This document shows positions 24,866-47,314 of a stretch of DNA of 52,934 nucleotides, in pieces. Made by a program: the position numbers and the translations under genes. The notes beneath the pieces are model-generated. The model ran no database searches. It had not been told where the DNA came from and saw only the letters and a program-made list of their open reading frames with translations. How positions within the stretch are numbered: the first letter of the stretch is position 1; each line of letters opens with the position of its first letter. The stretch is taken from the NCBI GenBank assembly GCA_016200205.1, contig JACQFF010000151.1, forward strand, positions 1-52,934, written 5' to 3'. The stretch comes from Planctomycetia bacterium (GTDB taxonomy: Bacteria > Planctomycetota > Planctomycetia > Pirellulales > PALSA-1355).

Positions 24866-26262
24866 AGACTAACGTCGGCCAGTGGGGCCGTATAGGTATG
24901 AGTTGTATTCTGGCTGTCTTCGCTTCAAAACACGTCTTCTTCTGTCTGGTGGGGGCTGTCGTGCTGGCGGCTGGTTGCAATCGCCAGCGTGAGAAGTTGC
25001 CTGCTGAAGAGGCGGTCTCACCCGGTGATCCCAAGGCCGTCAAGGTGACGGTTCAGCCCGTCACGTTTCGCCCCGTGCAACGCACGGTAGGGGTGGTTGG
25101 CACATTGCACGGATATGAGGAGATCTCGTTGGGAGCCAAAGTTGCCGGCCGGGTCCGCAAGATTGCGCACGACGTTTCCGACCGGGTCCGGCCGGGTGAG
25201 TTGTTGCTGGAAATCGAACCGACCGATTTTCAACTCAATGTGCGGCAGGCTCAAAAGGCGTTGCAGGTGGAGCTGGCAAAGCTCGGATTAACCGAGTTGC
25301 CGAGCTTGCGTACCGACGTGACCCGCGTTCCGACCGTGGTACAAGCGCAACTCCGCCGCGACAACGCCGAAAGACGGCTCGAACGCGCGAAAGCCTTGAG
25401 AGCCAGCAAGGCTGGCACAGAAGAAGACCTTACGGAAAAAATGTCTGAATTCCGCGTCGCGCAGGCGGAGTACGACAATCAAGTTTTGGTGGCCAAAGCC
25501 GGTATCGCCGCGATCCAAGTCAAGCAAGAAGCCTTGGCCATCGCACAGCAGCAACTGCAAGACACGTTGATCCGAGTCCCCGCGCCGAGTCAGCCGGTTC
25601 CCGGCGTGGACAAAGGCGCCACGTATGCGATCACCAGCCGGCCGGTGGCCGAGGGAAGTTACGTGATGGTCGGAGCTGAATTGTTCAAGCTGGTTATCGA
25701 CCAGCCATTGAAATTTCGCGCTCCGGTGCCGGAGCGCAAGAGCGGCGCCGTCCGCCTGGGGCAAAAGGCCGACATCTACACGGCGGCTTTTCAACATCCT
25801 TTTCCAGGCGAGGTCACGCGGATCAATCCGGCGATCGATCCGCAAACGAGAACTTTCGAAGTTGAAATCCTGGTCCCGAACACTCAGGCCGAATTGAAGC
25901 CCGGCGGATTCGCCAAAACGGCCATCGTCACCGACCTCGATGAACACGCGGCCACCGTACCGCTCGAATCGCTGGTCAACTTCGCGGGCGTCAGCAAAAT
26001 CTTTCTTGTGGTCGACGGCCACGCCAAAGAAGTGCCCGTGACGCTCGGGGTCCAGGATACCGAGTGGGTAGAAATCGCCTCGCCCACCCTTCCCGAGAAT
26101 TCCCAGGTCGTCACCAGCGGACAGACCGTCATCGCGGATGGGACGGCAGTGGCCGTACGCATGCCCCCCCTTCGAAATTCGACCGTGTTGACCGCCGAAT
26201 CCGAAGTCAAATCGCGCGAGGTGCCGGTAACCCCAATGGCCCGCAAAGGGGCGACTCCGTGA
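24862..26262 (+). CDS. RND efflux membrane-fusion lipoprotein
   Basis: This 466-residue periplasmic adaptor links the RND pump to an outer-membrane channel. A long N-terminal leader ends in the lipobox VVLAAGC (Cys39), so it is a lipoprotein. The lipoyl half-domains (GYEEISLGAKVAGRVRKI...VRPGELLLEIEPTDF and the later VAEGSYVMVGAELFKLV) flank a long alpha-hairpin (about 120-240). The beta-barrel and membrane-proximal domains follow (FPGEVTRINPAIDPQTRTFEVEILVPN; VPLESLVNFAGVSKIFLV). Start ATGA overlaps the tetR stop, and its TGA overlaps the GTG start of the pump gene. No outer-membrane factor is encoded in this operon; it may share one, such as those at 49.6-52.9 kb. Confidence 0.92.
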   Translation: MKTNVGQWGRIGMSCILAVFASKHVFFCLVGAVVLAAGCNRQREKLPAEEAVSPGDPKAVKVTVQPVTFRPVQRTVGVVGTLHGYEEISLGAKVAGRVRKIAHDVSDRVRPGELLLEIEPTDFQLNVRQAQKALQVELAKLGLTELPSLRTDVTRVPTVVQAQLRRDNAERRLERAKALRASKAGTEEDLTEKMSEFRVAQAEYDNQVLVAKAGIAAIQVKQEALAIAQQQLQDTLIRVPAPSQPVPGVDKGATYAITSRPVAEGSYVMVGAELFKLVIDQPLKFRAPVPERKSGAVRLGQKADIYTAAFQHPFPGEVTRINPAIDPQTRTFEVEILVPNTQAELKPGGFAKTAIVTDLDEHAATVPLESLVNFAGVSKIFLVVDGHAKEVPVTLGVQDTEWVEIASPTLPENSQVVTSGQTVIADGTAVAVRMPPLRNSTVLTAESEVKSREVPVTPMARKGATP

Positions 26263-29200
26263 CGATTTCCGAAATCTGCATTCGCCGCCCGGTATTCACG
26301 TGGGTGCTGGTAGCCATTCCTGTCGTTCTGGGAGCGGTTTCTTATTTCGAACTCGGCGTCGACCTTTTTCCCAAGGTCGATTTCCCGGTCGTCTCAGTGA
26401 CCGCCAACCTGCCGGGCACGAGTCCCCAGGAGATGGAGACCAGCGTTACCCGGCTGATCGAAGAGGCGATCAACACCGTCTCTGGTGTCGATGAGTTGCG
26501 CTCCACCGTGCGCGAGGGAATGACCGCGGTCATCGTTCAATTCGTATTGGAGAAGGACGGCGACGTGGCCGCACAAGAGATTCGCGATAAGATTTCCGCG
26601 ATCATGAAACAACTTCCCGAGGGCATCGATCCCCCGCTGGTCGACAAATTCGATCTCGATTCGGCGCCGATCATGACCATCGGCATCTCCGGCCGCCGCG
26701 ATGTGCGTGAAGTGACTGAAATCGCCAAGCATGAAATTCAAGAAGTCCTGCCCCAAGTGCCAGGCATCGGTCGCGTGTTTCTCTCCGGCGGTCGCACGCG
26801 GGCGATCAACATCGTTCTCGACACGCACCAGTTGATCGCCTATGGACTTTCGGTGGAGGATGTGCGCCAAGCGCTCGTGACGCAGCATTTGGAAGTGCCC
26901 GGCGGAATCGTTCAACAGGGCCCGCGCGAGTTGGTGTTGCGCACGCTGGGGCGGATCAAGACGGCGGCTCAGTTCGACGAATTGATCGTCACCACGCGCA
27001 GGGGATACCCCATCCGGGTCAAGGACGTGGGACGCACCGAGGATTCGATCGAAGAGCCTCGCGGGCTGACCCGGATGGATGGCGAGAACGCCGTGAGCTT
27101 GTTTATTCAGAAGCAATCAGGAACCAACACGATCAAGGTGGTCGACGGCGTCAATAAGCTCCTGGCAAACATCCGCAAACGATTGCCCGCGGATATAGAT
27201 ATTGAAGTCGTGAACGACCAATCCCGATTCGTGCGGCGCTCGATGGAGGAAGTGAAGTTCCACTTGCTGCTGGCGGGCGTTCTGGTGTCGTTGACCATTC
27301 TGCTTTTCATCCGCGATTGGCGGACCACCGTCATTGCCACGCTGGCCATTCCTACGTCGATCATTCCCACCTTTTTGTTCATGAGCCGGATGGGCTACAC
27401 GCTCAACAACATCACGATGCTGGCGTTGATTCTGGCGATCGGGATCGTCATCGACGACGCGGTGGTGGTGCACGAGAATATCTTTCGCCACATGGAAGAA
27501 GGCGGCCTGGACGCGATGGCGGCCGCGCGCAAAGGGACGAAGGAGATCGCCTTGGCCGTGTTGGCTACCAGCTTGTCGTTGGTGGTGATTTTCGTGCCCG
27601 TGGCGTTCATGGGCGGGATGGTGGGTCGATTCTTCAGCAGCTTCGGCATGACCGTGGCCTTTGCCATTCTGATGAGCCTGTTCGTCTCGTTCACGCTGAC
27701 GCCGATGCTCTGTTCGCGATTTCTAAAGCTCGATCCAGCGGAGTCCGGACATGCCGGTTCGAAGTCGGGCGTTGTCTATCGCCTGATCGACTGGATTTAT
27801 GGCAAGTCGCTTCGATTCGCGCTGCGGTTTCGGATTCTGGTCGTGGCGGTGTGTGTGCTCGTCGTGCTCGCTACCGGCCCCATTGCAGGCCGGATGGGTT
27901 TCAACCTGGTTCCTCGCGACGATCAGAGCGAATTTCAGATCACGATCATCACGCCCGAAGAATACACGCTGGAGCGGGCGGATCGGGTGTTCGGCGAGAT
28001 TGAAGAGCGTATTGCAAAACTTCCCGGCGTGACGCACCGTTTTACGGTGATTGGCGAAAACAATAATTCCGTCGGCAAGGGCCAGGGGGACGTGACCCGC
28101 GGTTCGATTTATGTTCGCATGAAGGAGCTTGAGGAGCGAGAGTACACGCAATTCGAGGTCATGCAAAGAGCTCGGCGTATCCTCGCGGAGTATCCCGACC
28201 TGCGTACCGCCGTGATCGACGTTTCGTCCATCCAGCGATCGGGTCAGGACAGCCGCGTGTTTCATTTGCTGCTGTCGGGTCCGGAGTTGGAAAAGCTGGC
28301 GAGCTATTCGGACGCTTTGATCAAGAAATTGCGGCAAATCCCGGGTCTGGCGGACGTGGATTCCACCATGTCGCTCCGCAAGCCGGAGGTTCAGGTCTCG
28401 ATCGACCGCGAACGAGCCAGCGACTTGGGCATTCCGGTCCAAACGATCGCCACCACGCTCAACGTTCTTGTCGGAGGCTCGCCCATCTCGAGATTCACCG
28501 ACGGCGCCGAACAGTACGACATTTGGTTGCGGGCCGACAGGCAGTTTCGCGCGAATCCCCAGCAGCTCGATTTGCTCTCGATTCCCTCGCCCAAGGTGGG
28601 TCTGGTTGAGTTGAGCAGCCTGGCCAAAGTGACCGAATCGCGCGGGCCCAGCCAAATCGACCGTTTCAATCGACAGCGGACCGTGACGATTTTGGCTAAC
28701 CCCGAAAAAATATCGCTCAGCGAGGCCAAGGAAAAATCGCAACAGGCCTTGGCTTCCTTGAATCTGCCTCCTCAATACCAAGCGGAGTTTTCCGGCCAAT
28801 CAAAAACATTGGAGGAAACAGCTTACTATTTTTTCATCGCGCTGGGGCTGAGCATTTCATTCATGTATCTGATTCTGGCCGCCCAATTCGAAAGCTGGAT
28901 GAACCCGCTGGCCATCTTGTCGGCTTTGCCGGTCACCATTCCCTTCGGTCTGCTGTCGCTCGTGCTGTTCCGGCAGCCGATGGATCTGTACGCGATGTTC
29001 GGCCTGTTCATGTTGGTTGGGATTGTCAAAAAAAATGGCATTTTGCAGGTCGACAAGACCAACGAACTGCGCCGCGCGGGCTTGCCGCGGGAGCGGGCCA
29101 TTCTCGAAGCCAACCATACCAGGCTGCGGCCCATTTTGATGACCACGATGATGCTCATCGCGGCCATGATCCCCATCGCCTTGGGCCAAGGCCCGGGTGC

Positions 29201-29375
29201 CGGGGCCCGGGCCAGCATGGCCAAAGTGATCATCGGCGGACAAATGCTCAGTTTGCTGCTGGCCCTGCTCGTCACGCCGGTGACGTATTCGTTGTTGGAT
29301 AGCCTGACGGGGCTCTTTGGCTGGAAGAGGGCACCAAACCCGGCTCCTCAATTGGCATCTGCCGCCACCGAATAG
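26259..29375 (+). CDS. RND efflux pump permease (hydrophobe/amphiphile type)
   Basis: This 1038-residue inner-membrane antiporter has the family's usual length and twelve transmembrane segments. The N-terminus TISEICIRRPVFTWVLVAIPVVLGAVSY and GVDLFPKVDFPVVSVTANLPGTSPQEMETSV are diagnostic. The proton-relay pair is intact in transmembrane segment 4 (IGIVIDDAVVVHENIFRHMEEGG). FVPVAFMGGMVGRFFSSFGMTVAFAILMSLFVSFTLTPML is the segment 5-6 motif; the second half repeats the fold and ends with LVGIVKKNGILQVD and RLRPILMTTMMLIAAMIPIALGQGPGAGARASMA. GTG at 26259 overlaps the adaptor stop by four bases. It is the last gene of the TetR-regulated operon and is only distantly related to the second pump at 44.0-47.3 kb. 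Confidence 0.95.
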   Translation: MTISEICIRRPVFTWVLVAIPVVLGAVSYFELGVDLFPKVDFPVVSVTANLPGTSPQEMETSVTRLIEEAINTVSGVDELRSTVREGMTAVIVQFVLEKDGDVAAQEIRDKISAIMKQLPEGIDPPLVDKFDLDSAPIMTIGISGRRDVREVTEIAKHEIQEVLPQVPGIGRVFLSGGRTRAINIVLDTHQLIAYGLSVEDVRQALVTQHLEVPGGIVQQGPRELVLRTLGRIKTAAQFDELIVTTRRGYPIRVKDVGRTEDSIEEPRGLTRMDGENAVSLFIQKQSGTNTIKVVDGVNKLLANIRKRLPADIDIEVVNDQSRFVRRSMEEVKFHLLLAGVLVSLTILLFIRDWRTTVIATLAIPTSIIPTFLFMSRMGYTLNNITMLALILAIGIVIDDAVVVHENIFRHMEEGGLDAMAAARKGTKEIALAVLATSLSLVVIFVPVAFMGGMVGRFFSSFGMTVAFAILMSLFVSFTLTPMLCSRFLKLDPAESGHAGSKSGVVYRLIDWIYGKSLRFALRFRILVVAVCVLVVLATGPIAGRMGFNLVPRDDQSEFQITIITPEEYTLERADRVFGEIEERIAKLPGVTHRFTVIGENNNSVGKGQGDVTRGSIYVRMKELEEREYTQFEVMQRARRILAEYPDLRTAVIDVSSIQRSGQDSRVFHLLLSGPELEKLASYSDALIKKLRQIPGLADVDSTMSLRKPEVQVSIDRERASDLGIPVQTIATTLNVLVGGSPISRFTDGAEQYDIWLRADRQFRANPQQLDLLSIPSPKVGLVELSSLAKVTESRGPSQIDRFNRQRTVTILANPEKISLSEAKEKSQQALASLNLPPQYQAEFSGQSKTLEETAYYFFIALGLSISFMYLILAAQFESWMNPLAILSALPVTIPFGLLSLVLFRQPMDLYAMFGLFMLVGIVKKNGILQVDKTNELRRAGLPRERAILEANHTRLRPILMTTMMLIAAMIPIALGQGPGAGARASMAKVIIGGQMLSLLLALLVTPVTYSLLDSLTGLFGWKRAPNPAPQLASAATE

Positions 29376-32194: not shown

Positions 32195-33283
32195 TCACAG
32201 AAGACTTCGCGCCGGGGATGTGTAAGCGGAAACAGGGGCGGGCTTGCCATAGTAGAAGCCCTGCGCCAGGACGAAGTCCATCTCACGGCAGACCGTCCCT
32301 TCTTCCTCGCACTCGATCCCCTCGGCTACCGGCAAAACCCCAAGCTCGGAGACAAGTCGTACGAGGTGAGCCAGCACCTGCTGCCGTTGGGAAGAGGCGC
32401 GGTGGATATCCTGGACCATTTGCCGATCGAACTTGAGGTAGTGAGGCCGGACCTCGGCTAGTTCGAACAGCCGCGCTTGTCCCGCTCCGAAATCGTCGAA
32501 GGCCAGGCACATGTTCAAGTCGTCCAACCCTGAACGCAGTTCTTTCATGGTCGAGACGTCGGTGACAGCAGCCTCGTGGATTTCCACCGTGATTGGCTGC
32601 GACGCGGCGAGCCGCCGCAGGGATTTCATGGAATCGAGCAGCCCTTCCTCGACCAGTTCCCTTGGGTGCGTGTTGACGAAGATGTGAGGCGGCTCGGAAA
32701 ACATGGCGCTGCTCCGCACGCCTTCTATTCGCATGGCCCTGCTCAGCTCGACTTCGGCATTCAGTTGGGCGGCGGCGCGGAACATCGTGGCGGGGGTCTC
32801 CAAACCGACCAACCGGCTGCGACTGAGAACCTCGTAGGCCACGGTGTGATTGTCGCGCAATTCAACGACCGCCTGAAAATATGCCACCACCGCGCGCTCG
32901 GTCACCAACTTTTCGAATTGCACCAGGCCCAACGCTCGATCGCATACGTCCTCGACCATCGTCCGCGAATCGAGGTCGCTCGACTGCTGACCGAGGCGAA
33001 ACGGCATGTCGGCGAACTGGATCATGTCGTCGTGATGGACCTCGATCTGGTCCCCGACTCGATCGCCGTTGACGTACGTACCGTTGGTGCTGTGCAGGTC
33101 TCGCAAAAACAGCGAGCTACCCTGGGTAACAAATTCCGCATGCAGGCTGGACATGGATGGTCGTGAGAGGCACAGCGAGAGATCGGTTCGCCGACCAACG
33201 CGGAACGGCATCGTATGCAACGGGATGCATCGCAGTCGTTCGTCCTGGCTCAATTGACCGGTTAGCATCCATGTGGTTTTCAT
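32195..33283 (-). CDS. FHA-EAL protein: phosphothreonine-binding domain fused to c-di-GMP phosphodiesterase domain
   Basis: This 362-residue cytoplasmic protein starts with an FHA domain (about 20-100: FRVGRRTDLSLCLSRPSMSSLHAEF, LRDLHSTNGTYVNGD). Its Arg, Ser, His and Asn-Gly phosphothreonine-recognition residues are in place. An EAL domain follows (about 125-355). EAL catalytic residues appear intact: Glu151 (EVL in place of EAL), Asn204 (FVNTHP), Glu234 (VEIHE), Asp263-Asp264 (AFDDFGAG), Lys284 (YLKFDRQ), Glu321/Glu324 (AEGIECEEE), Gln341 (AQGFYYGKP). ATG at 33283 is chosen; the frame is open to 33361. It is divergent from the AAA/kinase-tubulin cluster, so the FHA domain is a plausible reader of that kinase's products. 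This is an inference. Confidence 0.88.
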   Translation of the reverse strand: MKTTWMLTGQLSQDERLRCIPLHTMPFRVGRRTDLSLCLSRPSMSSLHAEFVTQGSSLFLRDLHSTNGTYVNGDRVGDQIEVHHDDMIQFADMPFRLGQQSSDLDSRTMVEDVCDRALGLVQFEKLVTERAVVAYFQAVVELRDNHTVAYEVLSRSRLVGLETPATMFRAAAQLNAEVELSRAMRIEGVRSSAMFSEPPHIFVNTHPRELVEEGLLDSMKSLRRLAASQPITVEIHEAAVTDVSTMKELRSGLDDLNMCLAFDDFGAGQARLFELAEVRPHYLKFDRQMVQDIHRASSQRQQVLAHLVRLVSELGVLPVAEGIECEEEGTVCREMDFVLAQGFYYGKPAPVSAYTSPARSLL

Positions 33284-33677
33284 GAACACTGCCCTTTTGT
33301 CCGCCCGCGCTATAAAAATGAAATAGCGCGGTCCGAATTGATTCTCGCGGCGCGGTGACAACCCTTTTTCCGGCAGCCTGGAACACTATGCACGTGAAAA
33401 TATAACTTACGGCTCGGGCGTGCAGCGTGATCAACCGCGAGAATCGATTTGACTGAATTCGATCCGGCAGGTCGTAGGCTTTTTACGGACTGTGCGGCTT
33501 GAATGGGCAGCAATCCTTGCCTTTGGAAACGACAACATCAGCGCACCGGAATCCCGAGACTCGTAAAAATTGCAGCCGACAATTGCCCGAGGTGGCCATA
33601 ACCTAGGATTATCCTGAAAGCACAGTGCAGGTTTTTCTTGTTTGCCGAGTGCCTTGAAAATCCGTTGGAACGTCACG
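33284..33677. other. Divergent intergenic region between FHA-EAL and AAA genes
   Basis: These 394 bases hold no convincing gene. The region should contain both divergent promoters. An imperfect palindrome, ataacctaggattat near 33599-33613, is the only structured site I noticed; its role is unknown. Confidence 0.4.
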
Positions 33678-35024
33678 ATGGCAACGCACGCGGACGCCCA
33701 CGAAATCGATGATGGCTTGAGGTCGATCCTGCTCTCGGACGACAATTTTTGGCCGGCGGAGCCAAAATCGATCCGCGAGACGGGGTTGAACAGCTCATTC
33801 ATCGAGCATCTTATTTGCAAGTACCTTGCCACGACCGGCTCCAGCAGCGGCCGGTCGATCGCGGAGTCGCTCTGCCTGTCGTTCAGCATTCTCGGAGAAT
33901 TGTTCGATTCGCTCCGAACGCGTCAGATTGTGGTGCACGCCGGCGCGGCGCCGTTCAACGACTACTATTATGCGCTCACCGACCACGGCAGGTCTCGGGC
34001 GACGGCTTACCTTGGGGAGTCCGGCTACGGCGGCCCGGCGCCGGTGCCGCTGATGGATTACGTACTCTCGGTCGAGGCCCAAGCGATTACCTTCGTGGCG
34101 CCCAAGTACGCGCAACTGGCCGAGGCGTTTCGCGATATTTCGGTCGAGCCGAAGCTGTTCGCGAGTCTGGGTCCGGCCATAAATTCCGGAGCAGGAATGT
34201 TCTTGTACGGGGCGCCGGGCAACGGCAAGTCGACGTTGGCCAGGCGCCTGACGGTCTGCTTCGGACAGAAAATCTGGATCCCCCAAGCGCTTTTGGAGGG
34301 CGGCCAGATCATCAAACTCTATGACGCGGCGTATCATCACATCGTCGAAGAAGACGACGGAACTCTGCTCCGCTGCCAAGATCACGATTGTCGCTGGCTG
34401 CAGATCTGGCGACCGACCGTCGTGGTCGGCGGCGAACTCACCATGGACGACCTGGAGATCCACCACAATCCGCAGAGCAATGTGAGCGAGGCGCCTTTGC
34501 AGATGAAGAGCAATTGCGGATGCCTGCTGCTGGATGACTTCGGCCGCCAGCGCATCGCTCCAAACGAACTGCTGAATCGGTGGATCGTTCCGCTGGAGTG
34601 CCGCCACGATTTTCTCACGCTGGCCAATGGAAAGAAGATCAAGGTGCCGTTCGAACAACTGATTATCTTTTCGACAAATCTAGAGCCTGAGGACCTGGTG
34701 GACGAGGCGTTCCTTCGCCGCATTCCCTACAAGATCGAGGTCGGCGACCCAGGCGTCGAGGAATTCCATTTCTTGTTCAAACTCTACTGCGCGACGTTCG
34801 ACTGCGAGTACCGCAAGGACGTCGTGAACTACCTGATTGACACGCACTACCGATCGCAGAATCGCGCGATGCGGCGTTGCCATCCGCGCGACTTACTTAT
34901 GCAAGTCCGAAACTACTGCCGGTACAACGATCTGGAAATGGAGATCCGCCCCGAGTATTTCGACTGCGTCGTCGAAAGCTATTTCGCGATGGTTTTGAAA
35001 GGAAAGGCAAAACGCGGGAATTGA
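33678..35024 (+). CDS. AAA+ ATPase with winged-helix-like N-terminal domain
   Basis: This 448-residue protein has an N-terminal region (about 30-115) with the pattern of a winged helix: SIRETGLNSSFIEHLICKYL, GRSIAESLCLSFSILGELFDSLRTRQIV, YYALTDHGRSRA. A linker with GPAPVPLMDYV and an ATPase domain follow. Walker A is GAPGNGKST (178-186), Walker B CLLLDDFGR (282-290), sensor 1 FSTNL (331-335), with arginines at 347-348 (FLRRIPYKIEV). The whole layout matches a widespread, uncharacterised family of ATPases noted as chaperone-like, which keeps VVGGELTMDDLE and NRWIVPLECRHDFLTL. The kinase-tubulin gene begins 71 bases downstream on the same strand. ATG at 33678 is the likely start; 33642 is possible. 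Confidence 0.85.
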   Translation: MATHADAHEIDDGLRSILLSDDNFWPAEPKSIRETGLNSSFIEHLICKYLATTGSSSGRSIAESLCLSFSILGELFDSLRTRQIVVHAGAAPFNDYYYALTDHGRSRATAYLGESGYGGPAPVPLMDYVLSVEAQAITFVAPKYAQLAEAFRDISVEPKLFASLGPAINSGAGMFLYGAPGNGKSTLARRLTVCFGQKIWIPQALLEGGQIIKLYDAAYHHIVEEDDGTLLRCQDHDCRWLQIWRPTVVVGGELTMDDLEIHHNPQSNVSEAPLQMKSNCGCLLLDDFGRQRIAPNELLNRWIVPLECRHDFLTLANGKKIKVPFEQLIIFSTNLEPEDLVDEAFLRRIPYKIEVGDPGVEEFHFLFKLYCATFDCEYRKDVVNYLIDTHYRSQNRAMRRCHPRDLLMQVRNYCRYNDLEMEIRPEYFDCVVESYFAMVLKGKAKRGN

Positions 35025-35095: not shown

Positions 35096-38092
35096 ATGAA
35101 CATGAAGACGGAAGTTACGCAGGTTGTAGGCTTCAATAAACAGGAGCCGATCCCGGGCTACTTCACCAAAGAACTCATCGGCGTCGGCGGCTACGGCGAA
35201 GTGTGGAAAACGCACGCGCCCGGCGGGTTGCTCAAGGCGGTGAAGATCGTCTACGCCAACTTGAATTCCAAACGCGCCTCTCGAGAACTCCGCTCCTTGA
35301 ATCGCATCAAGGAGGTGCGCCACGCATTTCTGCTATCGATCGAACGCATCGAGATTGTCGACGGCAACTTGATCATCGTCACGGAGCTAGCCGATCAAAG
35401 TCTCAAGCAACATTATGAAAAGTGTCGCGCCACGGGGCTCCGCGGCCTTCCTCGGGACGAGCTGCTGGAATATCTCCGCGACGCCGCTGACGCGCTGGAT
35501 TACATTTACGAGAACTACTCGCTGCAACACCTGGATATCAAGCCGGAAAACCTGCTGCTCGTGGGAAACCGGGCGAAAGTCGCCGATTTCGGCCTGATCA
35601 AAAACCTTTACGAGCGCTCCGCCTCGTTGATCGAAGGGCTCACGCCGATTTACTCGCCACCGGAACTCTTTGAGGGCAAGCCCAACCGGCACAGCGACCA
35701 ATATAGCCTGGCGATCGTGTACCAAGAGATGCTAACGGGCGAGTTGCCGTTCGACGGCATGACGGCGGCTCATCTGGCCGCCCAACACCTGCAGACGCCT
35801 CCAGCGCTTCGGGGACTGCCCAAGTGCGATCAGCCCATCATTGCCCGGGCATTGTCAAAGAATCCCGACGGGCGGTTCCCGAGTTGTCGGGCACTGATCG
35901 GGGCCCTGATCGAAGCCGGCAAGGAAAACGCTGAAGTCGTCAAGGATAACGCCGCCGGCCGCGATCACCGCCAGGCGGGGTCGTCAGCAGCACCCCTTAA
36001 GACAGAAGCGCTGGCCGAGGGATCCTTTGAGTTGGTGCAGAGCCAGTCCATCACTTCCGCAAAAGCCGAAGATTGGGCCGAGTTGGCGTCCATCGAACTG
36101 GACGAAAACGCGGCCACGCAGTACGCGCCGGTTCTGTTTGTGGGCATCGGGGGCGTCGCGACGCGGACATTCCGCCGATTGCGTGCACGACTCCAAGACC
36201 GGTTGGGAACCATGGACGCGATGCCGGCGATTGATCTCTTGCTGCTGGACACCGATGTGAAGAACCTCAATTGGGCCACCGGCGACGAGTCCAGCGCGGC
36301 GCTCCACGTGAGCGAGACGCTTGCCATGCCGCTGCGCCGGGCGGAGCACTACCGCTCGGCGGCGGGCAAAATCCTAGGCTCGATCAGCCGTCGCTGGGTG
36401 TACAACATACCGTTCAGCCTACAGACAGAAGGCTTCCGGCCCCTGGGTCGTCTGGCGATGGTGGACCATTCCAAGCGGTTATTGGACCGACTGCGGCAGG
36501 CCTTGACAAAAATCACGCGAGAGGAGAACGTTGCCACGACCGCGCAGAACACCGGTTTGAACCTCGCCTCTCGGCAGCCGCAGGTGTACATCGTGGCGTC
36601 GACTTCCGGCGGCACCGGCGGGGGCATGGTGCTCGACGTGGCTTATGCGGTACGGTCGATACTGGCCGAACTCGGCCTCTCCGAGGAAAACGTATTCGGA
36701 ATTCTGATGCATGCCACACCGCGCGCCGCCGGCGACCGCGACAAGGCTATCGCCAATTCATATTCCACGCTCAGCGAACTTTGGCACTACTGCCGGCCCG
36801 GCCATAACTACCCCGGTGATCGGGCCTGTGGCTTGCCGCCGTTCCATGGCAACAACCGCACCTTTTCGAATTGCTACTTCGTGCATCTGGGAGACGACCT
36901 GAGTGAGACGCAGCTGGACACCGCAACCGACCCGGTGGCCGAATACCTGTACTCCAGCGCGGTGACGCCAGCGGCCGGTTTCTTCGAAAAGTGTCGAAAG
37001 ATCGAGTACGCCCCCGCGGGCGCCCAACCGCCTGAGCCGGTGCTGCGGACCTTCGGCCTGTGCCAGTTGGGCGGCTCGAACAGCGACATACCGACAATCG
37101 TGGCCGAGTTGCTGTGTCGAGATTTGGTGTGTATTTGGCGGAGCGGGCCGCCGAATACCGTCGAGCGGGCGAGCCCGAAGCTCACCGAAACCGTGGCTCT
37201 GATCGCGGCGCACGACAAGACGAAACAGACCCGCTTCTTCAAAATCGAAGAGCAGGCGGCGGCCAAAGCGGCCGACTTGGAACTTGGGCTGGAACCAATG
37301 CAGGCAGTTGCTCGCGAGATCCTCGGCCAGGAAGTCTCGGGCGACGTTGAGTCCTACTTCGGCAGGCTGATTCTTGAGGCCTTTGACGCACCCCGGGCCG
37401 AGGCCGACGGGAACGACCTGACGCGCGTGTTTGCCATCGTTGACGCGGTACTTGGCGACGTTGCCAGGGGCGATGAGGACGGTGGCGACGCCAACTTCGA
37501 TTCGCTCGACACGGTGCTGAACACTCGACTGGAGGGGCGGGCCGGGAAAGCGGCCGCCGAGATTCGTGATTGGATCTTCGATCTGGTCGACGCGTCGGAA
37601 GCCCGAGTGGAAGGAGCAAAGCAAGCCGCCGAGTGGTTCCAAAATCTTCTCCGGACAATGGAACGAACGACCGTCAACACCGCCGGCCATCTTCGGGAGC
37701 AAATCGGGACGCTCAAGGACGCCGTGCTTAGCGACGACGCTGGCAGGCGCGCCGCCGGCGCTTCGAACACGCCGGATGCGAAGTTGCTCCGCGAGGAGAA
37801 AATCTGTCTGTTCGAGTACGCGCGGCTTCGGCTGGACCATGTCATAGAGTCTTCCGTCGCACGTTGGTTGCGGCTGATCGAGGGGCAGGTCACTGCCACA
37901 CTCGATCGGCTCCAGGAATTCTGGACAGACCTGAACAATCTGGCCGCGAGCTTCGATGTCACGCCGCGACTGAGTGACGCCTTCGACCGCTCGGCCGCGC
38001 CCGAGATCGTCCATAACAACTGGCGGTCCTTGCTGAGCGACCTCATCAACCATCGTGAGGACCCACAACCCGGCCTCGGTGGATTCGTTTGA
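35096..38092 (+). CDS. Protein kinase-like domain fused to a tubulin-like (Tubulin_2/FtsZ-like) domain
   Basis: This 998-residue protein has no obvious transmembrane segment. Residues 20-275 form a Ser/Thr kinase domain: glycine loop GVGGYGEV (29-36), Lys50 (KAVKIV), Glu64, catalytic loop HLDIKPEN (Asp147, Lys149, Asn152; the usual HRD arginine is Leu), DFG (164-166), SPPE and helix-F SDQYS. A linker (275-343) precedes a GTPase-like domain. It opens with PVLFVGIGGVATRTFRRLRARL and has LLLLDTDVKNL, then the tubulin/FtsZ-type signature TSGGTGGGMVLDVAYAVR (503-520). The last 350 residues are mostly helical. PF13809 (Tubulin_2) is my family reading. Joining a kinase and a tubulin-like fold in one chain suggests phosphorylation-linked assembly, which is inference. 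ATG at 35096 or 35102. Confidence 0.85.
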   Translation: MNMKTEVTQVVGFNKQEPIPGYFTKELIGVGGYGEVWKTHAPGGLLKAVKIVYANLNSKRASRELRSLNRIKEVRHAFLLSIERIEIVDGNLIIVTELADQSLKQHYEKCRATGLRGLPRDELLEYLRDAADALDYIYENYSLQHLDIKPENLLLVGNRAKVADFGLIKNLYERSASLIEGLTPIYSPPELFEGKPNRHSDQYSLAIVYQEMLTGELPFDGMTAAHLAAQHLQTPPALRGLPKCDQPIIARALSKNPDGRFPSCRALIGALIEAGKENAEVVKDNAAGRDHRQAGSSAAPLKTEALAEGSFELVQSQSITSAKAEDWAELASIELDENAATQYAPVLFVGIGGVATRTFRRLRARLQDRLGTMDAMPAIDLLLLDTDVKNLNWATGDESSAALHVSETLAMPLRRAEHYRSAAGKILGSISRRWVYNIPFSLQTEGFRPLGRLAMVDHSKRLLDRLRQALTKITREENVATTAQNTGLNLASRQPQVYIVASTSGGTGGGMVLDVAYAVRSILAELGLSEENVFGILMHATPRAAGDRDKAIANSYSTLSELWHYCRPGHNYPGDRACGLPPFHGNNRTFSNCYFVHLGDDLSETQLDTATDPVAEYLYSSAVTPAAGFFEKCRKIEYAPAGAQPPEPVLRTFGLCQLGGSNSDIPTIVAELLCRDLVCIWRSGPPNTVERASPKLTETVALIAAHDKTKQTRFFKIEEQAAAKAADLELGLEPMQAVAREILGQEVSGDVESYFGRLILEAFDAPRAEADGNDLTRVFAIVDAVLGDVARGDEDGGDANFDSLDTVLNTRLEGRAGKAAAEIRDWIFDLVDASEARVEGAKQAAEWFQNLLRTMERTTVNTAGHLREQIGTLKDAVLSDDAGRRAAGASNTPDAKLLREEKICLFEYARLRLDHVIESSVARWLRLIEGQVTATLDRLQEFWTDLNNLAASFDVTPRLSDAFDRSAAPEIVHNNWRSLLSDLINHREDPQPGLGGFV

Positions 38093-38417
38093 GTTCCATC
38101 GCTGTGTCGAGGAAGCCACACCGCTGCTGCAAATTGGGTCGGCTGCCCGCCGACTGGTCGTCATGGTGCCGAAAGACATTGACGAGGCGTGTCTTCTCGC
38201 GACTTTGGGCCAGGAAGACAGCCCGAAAGCGACAGTCATTCGCATGACTCAAGGCGATCTCATCGCGTGCCAGGAAGTCGAACAACTTCACGTTCGTCGC
38301 GTGGCGGCCGCGCTCGTCGACAATCGTCGAGACTATATTGAAATCGCCAAGCGACTCCACGCGCGGATCGACGTCAACTGGGATGACATGTCGACCAACA
38401 GTCGGACATCGGGATGA
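38055..38417 (+). CDS. Small protein overlapping the kinase-tubulin gene, unknown family
   Basis: This frame is 120 residues from GTG at 38055, or about 112 from GTG at 38079. Either start overlaps the end of the kinase-tubulin gene, the pattern of translational coupling. It reads as a compact alpha/beta protein: RRLVVMVPKDIDEACLLATLG, ATVIRMTQGDLIACQEVEQLHVRRVAAALVDNR, EIAKRLHARIDVNWDDM. There is no signal peptide or transmembrane helix. No family recognised. Its position suggests it is an accessory or regulatory partner of the kinase-tubulin protein. Confidence 0.65.
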   Translation: MRTHNPASVDSFEFHRCVEEATPLLQIGSAARRLVVMVPKDIDEACLLATLGQEDSPKATVIRMTQGDLIACQEVEQLHVRRVAAALVDNRRDYIEIAKRLHARIDVNWDDMSTNSRTSG

Positions 38418-44032: not shown

Positions 44033-47000
44033 TTATTGCAGGTCTGCTTCCACGTTGCCCGGTCCTTCCTTGCCGTCATGGACCAGAAGTGAATAGAGCG
44101 CCGGGACGACAAAAAGCGTCGTCACAAGGCCAGCCAAGAGTCCACCGATTACTGCCCTGCCTAGGGGAGTATTCGCTTCGCTTCCCCGCGCCAAACCCAG
44201 TGCCATGGGTAGCAAGGCGAAGAAAGCCGCAAGCGCCGTCATGACGACGGGACGAACTCGGACTGCAGCTGCTCGCTTGATCGCCTCGGTTGGCGCCAAG
44301 TGGTCTTCCACTCGTAATTTTTGCGCAAAGTCCGTTAGCAGGACGGTATTGGAGACTACGATGCCGACCATAAAGATCACGCCCAGCAGCGACTGCACAT
44401 TGATCGCTGTGTTTGTCAGGTACAGCATGGTCACCACGCCCGCGATTCCAACTGGGACGGCGGCCAGAATCACCAAGGGCGTAATGTAGGACTTGAAGAG
44501 GGCGACCAGCAAGAAATAGATGAGTAGCGAAGCCAAAATGAGTCCGATACCGAGGTTGTGGAAAGTATCTTGCATCCGCGTGTACTCACCGCTCAGATCG
44601 ATTTTGCTTCCCTCGAGAACCTTTTTGGTGGGAGCAGTAGGGTCGTAAGGGGTCCAAAGGGCTGGCCCCATCGGCTCGCCGAACGCGTTGACGGCGTTCG
44701 ACACGTCGTCCGCCACATGGCCCAAATCGCGTCCCGAGATTCCCATTGTCAGGTCGATAGTAGGTTGCAAATTCGTGTGCGTCACTTCGGCCGGATCGGA
44801 TGCCCGCCGTAGCGAGACGATGTTCCGCAGGGGAATGGGCCGATTTTGCACGGGACTTGTGATCGGCACGTCCAGAAGCGTCTCAACCGACTTGATCTCG
44901 CCTTCTGGGTACTGCACGCCGACAAAGTACTGGTTGTGGCTGATCGGATCGATCCAAAAGTTGTGCTTGTTGAACTGAATGCTCGAATTAATCGCCGCCA
45001 CGACGTTCTTCATCACATCGGATTGATCCAAGCCCAGATCAGCGGCCTTGGAACGGTCGACGTCGATGATATATTTCGGATAGTCGAGTCGCTGTAAGAT
45101 ACGGCAGTCGACGACTCCATCAATTCCTGAAACCGCGTGTCGAATGTTTTCCGCGATCTTGTGGGCCACCGCAGGATCCTTGCCGCGGATGCGTATGTTG
45201 ATGGGAGTCGATTTTCCTTCGTTCATGGCACCGCGGATCATCCCGCCCGCATCAAATGCAAACTCCAACGACGAGAACTCCGCGCTTTGAGCAAAGCCTT
45301 TCCGAAGCATCTCGACGTATTCTTGAGCCGATCGCTTACGCTCTGGTTCGAGTTGCACTTTCATGACCGCGTCCATCGGGCCGGAATTCGGCGTGTAGGC
45401 AGCCGACCAATCCGGTGTCACGCCCAACTCGCTGATAGTCACCTGCAGATCGTCCTTGATTGAATCGCGGATAAACTTCTCCACCTGGGCGATCTTTTGT
45501 TCCGTGACCTCGATCCGCGTTCCCGTCGCGTCTCGCACGTAGATCTCGAACGCGCCGGCATCGACTTCAGGAAAGGACTCCCGACGAAGACGAGACCCTA
45601 AGAGTGTCACCACCGCGACGAGAATCACGAGAGCGGAACAAACCGTCAGCACCCGTCGTCGCATTACGGTGTTCAGGAGTTTCACGTAGCCTTGAATGGC
45701 GCGATCGATCAGGTTCTCCCAACGCTCAAATGGCCCGACTAGACGTTTCAGAGGCGGGTGCTCGTGAACGCTGCGATGCTCGTGATCTTCGCCGGTTGGA
45801 GACGAACTCAGAATTGGATGGGCGATGTCGTGCGATTTGAGCCAAGCGGCACAGCGAGCTGGCACGAACGACCAGGAGAGTAACGATGCCGACGCCATCG
45901 AGAAAGCCACGGCCATCGCCATCGGCTGGAACAAGAACTGCCCCATTCCCGGCATGATCGCCAGTGGAGCCAGCACCAAGAGCGTACAAATGCTCGCCGC
46001 CAAGACCGGTAGCGCGACCTCGCTCGAGCCGAGATACGCGGCCCGAAACGGCGCCGCGCCCAACCCTAGGTGGCGATGCGTGTTTTCAAGGCACACAATC
46101 GATGTGTCGATCAAGGGACCAATAGCCAAAGAGAGGCCCGCCAGGGTCATCACGTTGATCGTGTTGTCCGTGTAGTACAAGCCAGCGACAGTTGCAAAAA
46201 CCGCGATCGGAAGGGTCAGCACGGCGATAATCGTCATTCGCCACTCGCCCAAGAATAACAGAATGACCAGCGAGCAAAGTATCGCGCCAAGCACGCCCTC
46301 CTCGATCAGGCTCTCGATGGAGTTGCGGACGTACACGGATTGGTCCATGACGACCTTCAAGTCAATGCCCGGACGGGTGAGACGTCCTTTCATGTCGGGA
46401 ACCGTCGTTTTCAGATTGTCCACGACGCTCAGCGTGCTGGTACCGAGTTGCCGATACACTGGGATGTAGACCTGGCGCCGGCCGTTGACCCTTACCACAT
46501 TCGTCTGGATGAAGCTGGCATCTTCGGGAGTGGCAACGTTTTTTAGATAAGTGGCATTGCCGTGCTCGGTTCGAAGGGGAATGTCGCCCATGCGATCGAC
46601 AAGCTCGTACATCGAGTTTGAGTCGATGGCATAGTCGGTGCTGCCGAACTTGGCGTCGCCGGCGGGCAGAAAGAGATTGTAGTTGTCGAGTGCCTTCATC
46701 ACGTCGACGGGCGACAGATTCCGGGCCTGTAGCTTCGCGCGATCTAGGTAAGCGAGCACGGCCCGAATCTTGCCGCCGTAAACCACCGGAGCAACGGCCC
46801 CGGGGACCGCCATGATCATATTGCGGACTTCATAGCGACCCGTATCGTACAAAATCGACTCGGACTGGCTTTTGCTGTCCAACGCGACGATGCATGCCGG
46901 CGTCGTGCTCGTCGGATCAAAGGGAAGAACCACCGGCGGCAAAGTGCCTGGCGGCAAATTGGGAATCGCCGCGGAAGCCAGCGAGTTGACCTGGGTCAGC

Positions 47001-47314
47001 GCTCCGTTCGGATCCGTGTCGCTGCGGTAGTAGTTGCGAACAATGCTGGCCCCCACGATGGATCGAGACTCTTGGCGACTCGTGCCGGTCGCCTGGCCGG
47101 TCCACCGCTCCATACGGTTAGTAATGTCCTTTTCGACGTTTTCGGCGGGCATTCCGCCATAGAATGTCAAAACCTGCACCGCCGGGCTCTTGAACACCGG
47201 CAAGATGTCGATCGGAATGACGCGAAGAGACAATGCTCCGAACACGACGAGGGTAAGCACCATCACGGTGACGGCATAGGGATTTCTTAACGACGCGCGG
47301 ATTAGTCCGTTCAT
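44033..47314 (-). CDS. RND efflux pump permease, second type
   Basis: This 1093-residue inner-membrane pump has twelve transmembrane segments in two repeated halves. The start MNGLIRASLRNPYAVTVMVLTLVVFG and PIDILPVFKSPAVQVLTFYGGMPAENVEKDITNRME fit the family. Transmembrane segment 4 reads LAIGPLIDTSIVCLENTHRHL. The first proton-relay Asp is kept but the second is Thr, closer to heavy-metal RND pumps (one Asp followed by Ala) than to drug pumps. The inserted loop around residue 500 is His/Glu-rich (EDHEHRSVHEHPP) and could bind metal. It is the last gene of a minus-strand operon with its adaptor 42 bases upstream. The substrate is unknown; a metal or cationic compound is plausible. Confidence 0.92.
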   Translation of the reverse strand: MNGLIRASLRNPYAVTVMVLTLVVFGALSLRVIPIDILPVFKSPAVQVLTFYGGMPAENVEKDITNRMERWTGQATGTSRQESRSIVGASIVRNYYRSDTDPNGALTQVNSLASAAIPNLPPGTLPPVVLPFDPTSTTPACIVALDSKSQSESILYDTGRYEVRNMIMAVPGAVAPVVYGGKIRAVLAYLDRAKLQARNLSPVDVMKALDNYNLFLPAGDAKFGSTDYAIDSNSMYELVDRMGDIPLRTEHGNATYLKNVATPEDASFIQTNVVRVNGRRQVYIPVYRQLGTSTLSVVDNLKTTVPDMKGRLTRPGIDLKVVMDQSVYVRNSIESLIEEGVLGAILCSLVILLFLGEWRMTIIAVLTLPIAVFATVAGLYYTDNTINVMTLAGLSLAIGPLIDTSIVCLENTHRHLGLGAAPFRAAYLGSSEVALPVLAASICTLLVLAPLAIMPGMGQFLFQPMAMAVAFSMASASLLSWSFVPARCAAWLKSHDIAHPILSSSPTGEDHEHRSVHEHPPLKRLVGPFERWENLIDRAIQGYVKLLNTVMRRRVLTVCSALVILVAVVTLLGSRLRRESFPEVDAGAFEIYVRDATGTRIEVTEQKIAQVEKFIRDSIKDDLQVTISELGVTPDWSAAYTPNSGPMDAVMKVQLEPERKRSAQEYVEMLRKGFAQSAEFSSLEFAFDAGGMIRGAMNEGKSTPINIRIRGKDPAVAHKIAENIRHAVSGIDGVVDCRILQRLDYPKYIIDVDRSKAADLGLDQSDVMKNVVAAINSSIQFNKHNFWIDPISHNQYFVGVQYPEGEIKSVETLLDVPITSPVQNRPIPLRNIVSLRRASDPAEVTHTNLQPTIDLTMGISGRDLGHVADDVSNAVNAFGEPMGPALWTPYDPTAPTKKVLEGSKIDLSGEYTRMQDTFHNLGIGLILASLLIYFLLVALFKSYITPLVILAAVPVGIAGVVTMLYLTNTAINVQSLLGVIFMVGIVVSNTVLLTDFAQKLRVEDHLAPTEAIKRAAAVRVRPVVMTALAAFFALLPMALGLARGSEANTPLGRAVIGGLLAGLVTTLFVVPALYSLLVHDGKEGPGNVEADLQ

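Follow-up and report, generated by a model that had tools for sequence, protein, structure and literature searches.

A planctomycete kinase–FtsZl1 fusion gene, its conserved ATPase and FHA–EAL neighbours, and a copy damaged at the 3′ end

We have studied a gene encoding a protein kinase fused to a tubulin-like domain, within a window of 52,934 nucleotides comprising the planctomycete contig JACQFF010000151.1. It belongs to the planctomycete kinase–FtsZl1 family, in which a Ser/Thr-type kinase is followed by a disordered Thr-rich linker, a nucleotide-binding domain of the tubulin superfamily, a helical bundle and a small C-terminal domain. The fusion has been known since 2010 without a specific functional lead. 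One is now supplied by a conserved set of partners, an AAA-like ATPase and an FHA-EAL protein. What is added here is this partner set, the co-occurrence of the ATPase with the fusion, the pattern of conserved FHA and EAL residues, and the damage in the window copy. The features of the window are as follows.

32195..33361, minus strand: FHA-EAL gene of type A, divergent from the ATPase gene (Pfam EAL 8.6e-37, FHA 1.9e-16)
33678..35024, plus strand: AAA-like ATPase gene, a conserved partner on the same strand as the fusion gene and 71 nt upstream of it
35096..38092, plus strand: kinase–FtsZl1 fusion gene, 998 aa as found, C-terminally damaged compared with its relatives, of which full-length examples are known
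35156..35920, plus strand: protein kinase domain, approximately residues 21-275, non-RD (HLD) with catalytic residues intact (Pfam, conservation, and the kinase fold of a homologue model)
35921..36127, plus strand: linker of about 70 aa, predicted to be disordered from the homologue model and Thr-enriched across the family
36128..37144, plus strand: Tubulin_2/FtsZl1 GTPase-like domain, approximately residues 345-683 (PF13809, and match of the model to FtsZ and TubZ using Foldseek)
37145..38047, plus strand: alpha-helical, coiled-coil-like bundle that replaces the C-terminal domain of FtsZ and tubulin (secondary structure of the model, and alignment)
38055..38417, plus strand: displaced frame encoding the C-terminal domain conserved in the family (RRDYIEIAKRLHARIDVNW), which relatives have in frame

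Architecture and predicted fold of the fusion protein

The gene is a single open frame of 998 aa, with no interruption. The original prediction placed a kinase and a tubulin/FtsZ-like domain in one chain, and this is borne out by a Pfam search of the protein, which matched Pkinase at residues 24-233 (5e-27) and Tubulin_2 (PF13809) at residues 347-678 (1.5e-35, 123.6 bits against a cut-off of 27). The kinase and tubulin motifs quoted with that prediction are all present. In the kinase K50, E64, HLD145-147, K149, N152 and DFG164-166 are each conserved in at least 95% of 71 complete relatives, from which we predict an active enzyme of the non-RD kind. The tubulin signature TSGGTGGG (G505, G506, G508, G510) is conserved in the same relatives. 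Conservation within the protein is highest in the kinase, with about 55-65% identity compared with about 25-47% for the tubulin-like part. In the linker the threonine content across the family is 8.0%, against 4.7% elsewhere. A chimeric assembly of two genes is ruled out, since the same fused architecture recurs in more than 100 other genomes; the sole assembly question concerns the 3′ end.

A model of residues 335-998 was calculated using AlphaFold2 with 60 relatives, giving a mean pLDDT of 85.7 and pTM = 0.67. When it was compared with the PDB using Foldseek, the only matches at E ≤ 0.001 were Aquifex FtsZ and phage TubZ, in agreement with the tubulin fold that had been expected for this region. 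Below these top matches there were many FtsZ and tubulin chains, the TM-scores by target for the FtsZ chains being approximately 0.4-0.5. A sequence-profile search of the PDB returned only coiled-coil noise. Helices span approximately residues 665 to 985 in the model, corresponding to the coiled-coil or alpha-helical C-terminal part of the FtsZl1 type, and they stand in place of an FtsZ-like C-terminal domain, of which there is none in the model. Nor was a T7 loop identifiable in the tubulin-like part, in agreement with the 2010 analysis (PMC2875224). The likeness to canonical FtsZ, tubulin and TubZ lies in the predicted fold of the nucleotide-binding domain together with the GGTGxG signature. 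In contrast to canonical FtsZ and tubulin, the fusion has no match to PF00091 over the cut-off and no recognizable FtsZ C-terminal domain or T7 loop, and continues into a helical bundle.

We also modeled the complete homologue from Lacipirellula limnantheis (1100 aa, pLDDT 84.5). Its model comprises, in order, a kinase, a disordered linker, the tubulin-like domain and a long helical bundle, and ends in a small alpha/beta domain. The best PDB matches of this model are kinases.

The architecture itself is not novel. The FtsZl1 family was described in 2010 by Makarova and Koonin (PMC2875224), who noted an extra N-terminal kinase domain in four planctomycete members. The fusion was repeated in a paper of 2023 (PMC9871819), and in a 2024 survey of planctomycete kinases the tubulin-like domain is the commonest associated domain among those exclusive to cytoplasmic kinases (PMC11032199). 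The present protein shares with the published fusions the N-terminal kinase, the FtsZl1/Tubulin_2 domain, the coiled-coil or helical C-terminal part and the bacterial group, but unlike them the window copy is C-terminally damaged. In the accessible parts of these three papers the fusion is mentioned briefly, with no description of the AAA and FHA partners, although the ATPase neighbor may already be tabulated in the neighbor lists of 2010.

The 3′ end of the window copy and its genus

Position 38092 does not mark the natural end of the protein, as relatives are approximately 1100-1200 aa in length compared with 998 aa here, running about 100-200 residues further, and the domain with which they end is out of frame in the window. 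In complete relatives this terminal domain carries a near-invariant pattern of R, R, D and W. The window copy lacks an in-frame C-terminal domain ending in R..D..W, which is instead encoded at 38055-38417 in another frame. In the alignment the distance from the last in-frame aligned residue to the domain is about 20 codons in the window, against about 80 in relatives. Judged from this comparison the window copy lacks about 60 aa and has shifted its frame. We take this as damage to a single copy and not as the mark of another family. The sequence of the displaced domain is still well conserved, so that either the event was recent or it is an assembly error; the window copy may therefore be a decaying allele or an artifact of assembly. 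The assembly of this genome consists of 328 contigs. A programmed frameshift is unsupported, because the 60 or so amino acids are gone as well, and because complete relatives read straight through.

In the only other genome of the genus we found neither an FtsZl1 gene nor an orthologue of the ATPase. That genome retains the FHA-EAL gene (69-70% identical), split across two contigs. The sister species thus seems to have lost the fusion gene, which fits a loss of the module in the genus, as seen in two genomes only.

Distribution and conserved neighbors

The fusion is present in at least 107 of 297 genomes of the order Pirellulales, the count being taken by hand and 107 a lower bound. PF13809 was found in 11 of 246 genomes of the wider phylum. 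In scanning genome contigs, a single sequence of the whole protein gave nothing, and the alignment-based scan was the one that succeeded. Named carriers include L. limnantheis, Botrimarina colliarenosi and B. hoheduenensis. The window's own genome has one PF13809 gene, and no match to the FtsZ/tubulin family PF00091 at E ≤ 0.001. To our knowledge the Planctomycetes lack FtsZ. The fusion has evidently not taken its place as a general division protein, for which presence in only about one-third of the order is too patchy. Additional copies of the fusion, shorter at about 790-920 aa, occur in three genomes (G281, G291 and G361), some with their own ATPase and FHA-EAL-like neighbors (L076, L077). 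A contig filed as 'Candidatus Nealsonbacteria' (JABMRB010000618.1, L085) bears a planctomycete-type kinase–FtsZl1 gene, probably through a binning error.

Two families recur beside the fusion. In a set of 40 regions spread over the order, 37 have an FHA-EAL gene close to the fusion and 35 the AAA-like ATPase gene, which is without exception on the strand of the fusion; no other family is as widespread in these regions. At 80 further loci the numbers are 70 and 54, respectively, many of the absences falling on short contigs. The two sets partly overlap because they were drawn from overlapping genome collections. A receiver-GGDEF-CBS family occurs in 16 of the 40 fused loci. The gene for this diguanylate cyclase (e.g., L043:12096-13505, plus strand) lies in many loci between the ATPase and FHA-EAL genes, mostly on the opposite strand.

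Co-occurrence of the ATPase with the fusion extends beyond adjacency. At a threshold of E ≤ 1e-155, 83 of the 297 genomes have an orthologue of the ATPase, and every one of these carries the fusion as well. In at least 18 of them the two genes lie on different contigs or more than 15 kb apart, some perhaps on broken contigs. The hypergeometric value of 4e-52 ignores phylogeny and is not readable as a probability. ATPase matches are missing in 24 of the at least 107 fusion genomes, in part due to the strict threshold and to broken contigs. Co-occurrence even when the genes are apart suggests a dedicated module. The ATPase has no Pfam assignment above the cut-off. Its profile matches AAA ATPases of the spastin, VCP and Msp1 kind, but mainly around the Walker A region, and we have set these matches aside as a guide to function. 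Two more paralogues (47-52% identity) are present in the window's own genome. At one locus (L069:10218-11551) the ATPase gene is in two frames, though the fusion that it adjoins is intact.

The FHA-EAL protein of the window possesses all the key residues for EAL catalysis and for phosphopeptide binding by the FHA domain. In the family as a whole we distinguish two types. In type A the EAL catalytic residues are kept in 65 of 65 proteins, with one exception at one site. In type B the EAL active site has decayed, its alignment being less secure than in the FHA region; such genes usually stand immediately upstream of the fusion and on its strand (e.g., L053, L056, L066 and L072). Yet both types retain the FHA residues that bind phosphopeptides, in 65 of 65 type A and in 38-39 of 39 type B proteins. 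That the FHA part is constant while the enzyme part varies speaks most strongly for a link with the kinase. The Thr-enriched linker gives a weak hint that it contains docking sites for the FHA domain. FHA-EAL proteins are, however, not confined to the fusion loci, which counts against the scaffold reading given below; for example, a second FHA-EAL gene (C185; L181:4615-5781, minus strand), 50% identical, is located away from the fusion in the same genome.

One reviewer of the 2010 paper drew attention to Psta_0487, a c-di-GMP phosphodiesterase encoded next to the gene of Pirellula staleyi, and the authors discounted it as seen in few genomes only (PMC2875224). The present locus counts show that such a neighbor is general for the fused type. 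In the open-access literature we found nothing on FHA-EAL proteins with planctomycetes or with c-di-GMP. In FHA-regulated Ser/Thr kinase systems of bacteria, a kinase is paired with a phosphothreonine-binding FHA protein. Here, by contrast, each of the two has a further domain fused to it, an EAL c-di-GMP phosphodiesterase in the case of the FHA domain and a tubulin-like domain in that of the kinase.

Possible function of the fusion and its partners

The partner set suggests a phosphorylation-controlled signaling scaffold rather than a cell-division ring. The reading that we favor, tentatively and at somewhat short of an even chance for the chain in outline, is of a phospho-signaling scaffold that feeds the turnover of c-di-GMP. 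The tubulin-like part would bind GTP, and a cytoplasmic scaffold or filament would form through this domain and the helical bundle. Assembly could gather the kinase domains, leading to phosphorylation of threonines in the linker or of neighboring proteins. The FHA domain of the FHA-EAL protein, to judge from its conservation, might then bind these phosphothreonines and bring the c-di-GMP phosphodiesterase, or its non-catalytic version, to the scaffold. In the weakest step, the AAA-like ATPase may remodel or dismantle the assembly. The observations on which this is built are the domains, the predicted fold, the conserved active sites, the partner set, the co-occurrence and the conserved phosphopeptide-binding residues. 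Stated in full, as a dedicated module in which a kinase-bearing tubulin scaffold controls the phosphodiesterase via phosphothreonine–FHA binding and is dismantled by the ATPase, the proposal is a doubtful one. The original prediction had envisaged a filament or ring with assembly tied to phosphorylation. This is possible, but weakened by the helical bundle that follows the tubulin-like domain and by the lack in FtsZl1 of recognizable T6-H7 and C-terminal FtsZ elements, as given in the 2010 analysis (PMC2875224). That neither a T7 catalytic loop nor an FtsZ C-terminal domain could be identified also counts against a scaffold, and the 2010 authors considered that the family might not form filaments (PMC2875224).

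Other explanations have to be weighed. FtsZl1 filaments might act on membranes as a cytoskeletal or remodeling machine, with assembly toggled by the fused kinase. The tubulin-superfamily fold is consistent with this, as is the lack of PF00091 FtsZ or tubulin in the window's own genome, and the idea was published in 2010 for FtsZl1 in general. However, that paper derives it from vWA and OmpA neighbors (PMC2875224). In planctomycetes it is the unfused FtsZl1 genes that adjoin secreted vWA proteins, some with PKD repeats; no vWA domain was found among the recurrent neighbors of the 40 fused loci, or by Pfam in the window genes scanned. A search with the vWA-PKD protein from one unfused locus as query, made without a positive control, also gave nothing in the window's own genome. 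The vWA/FtsZl1 operons share the PF13809 family with the fused type, which has the AAA and FHA-EAL partners instead. The gene is, moreover, confined to about a third of the order and so is not a general division protein. We consider a membrane machine unlikely. Of the original interpretation, the domain assignment and the kinase–FtsZ-like fusion stand, and the vWA setting behind the membrane-remodeling idea is that of the unfused planctomycete members.

It is also conceivable, if rather improbable, that the tubulin-like domain forms no polymer and acts as a nucleotide-sensing or oligomerizing regulator of the kinase, with the FHA-EAL and AAA proteins as ordinary signaling neighbors. The greater conservation of the kinase and the missing FtsZ C-terminal elements are consistent with this, whereas the co-occurrence of ATPase orthologue and fusion points to a dedicated module. 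We regard as very unlikely a conflict or immunity system, in which the tubulin-like part would assemble when an invader is sensed, with the kinase or ATPase as the effector. Predicted GTPase/tubulin/vWA conflict systems do include tubulin-domain proteins (Kaur and co-workers, 2020; PMC7159879), and the distribution of the fusion is patchy. The kinase also matches the PADLOC models Mad6 and PD-T4-6, as many bacterial kinases would; this is generic kinase similarity, and we have drawn no anti-phage assignment from it. Around the fusion in the 40 loci there is no recurrent nuclease, protease or toxin effector, and the partners are conserved with intact signaling residues, without the turnover of effectors typical of defense loci.

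The partner set separates the fused FtsZl1 proteins from the vWA type on which the membrane-remodeling idea rested, and makes a route from kinase to FHA domain to c-di-GMP directly testable in cultured species. If the signaling scaffold is correct, it would directly link a tubulin-like polymer, Ser/Thr phosphorylation and c-di-GMP signaling in bacteria that lack FtsZ.

Elsewhere in the window, two large frames (26064-29375, plus strand, and 44033-47314, minus strand) resemble RND-type efflux transporters by eye.
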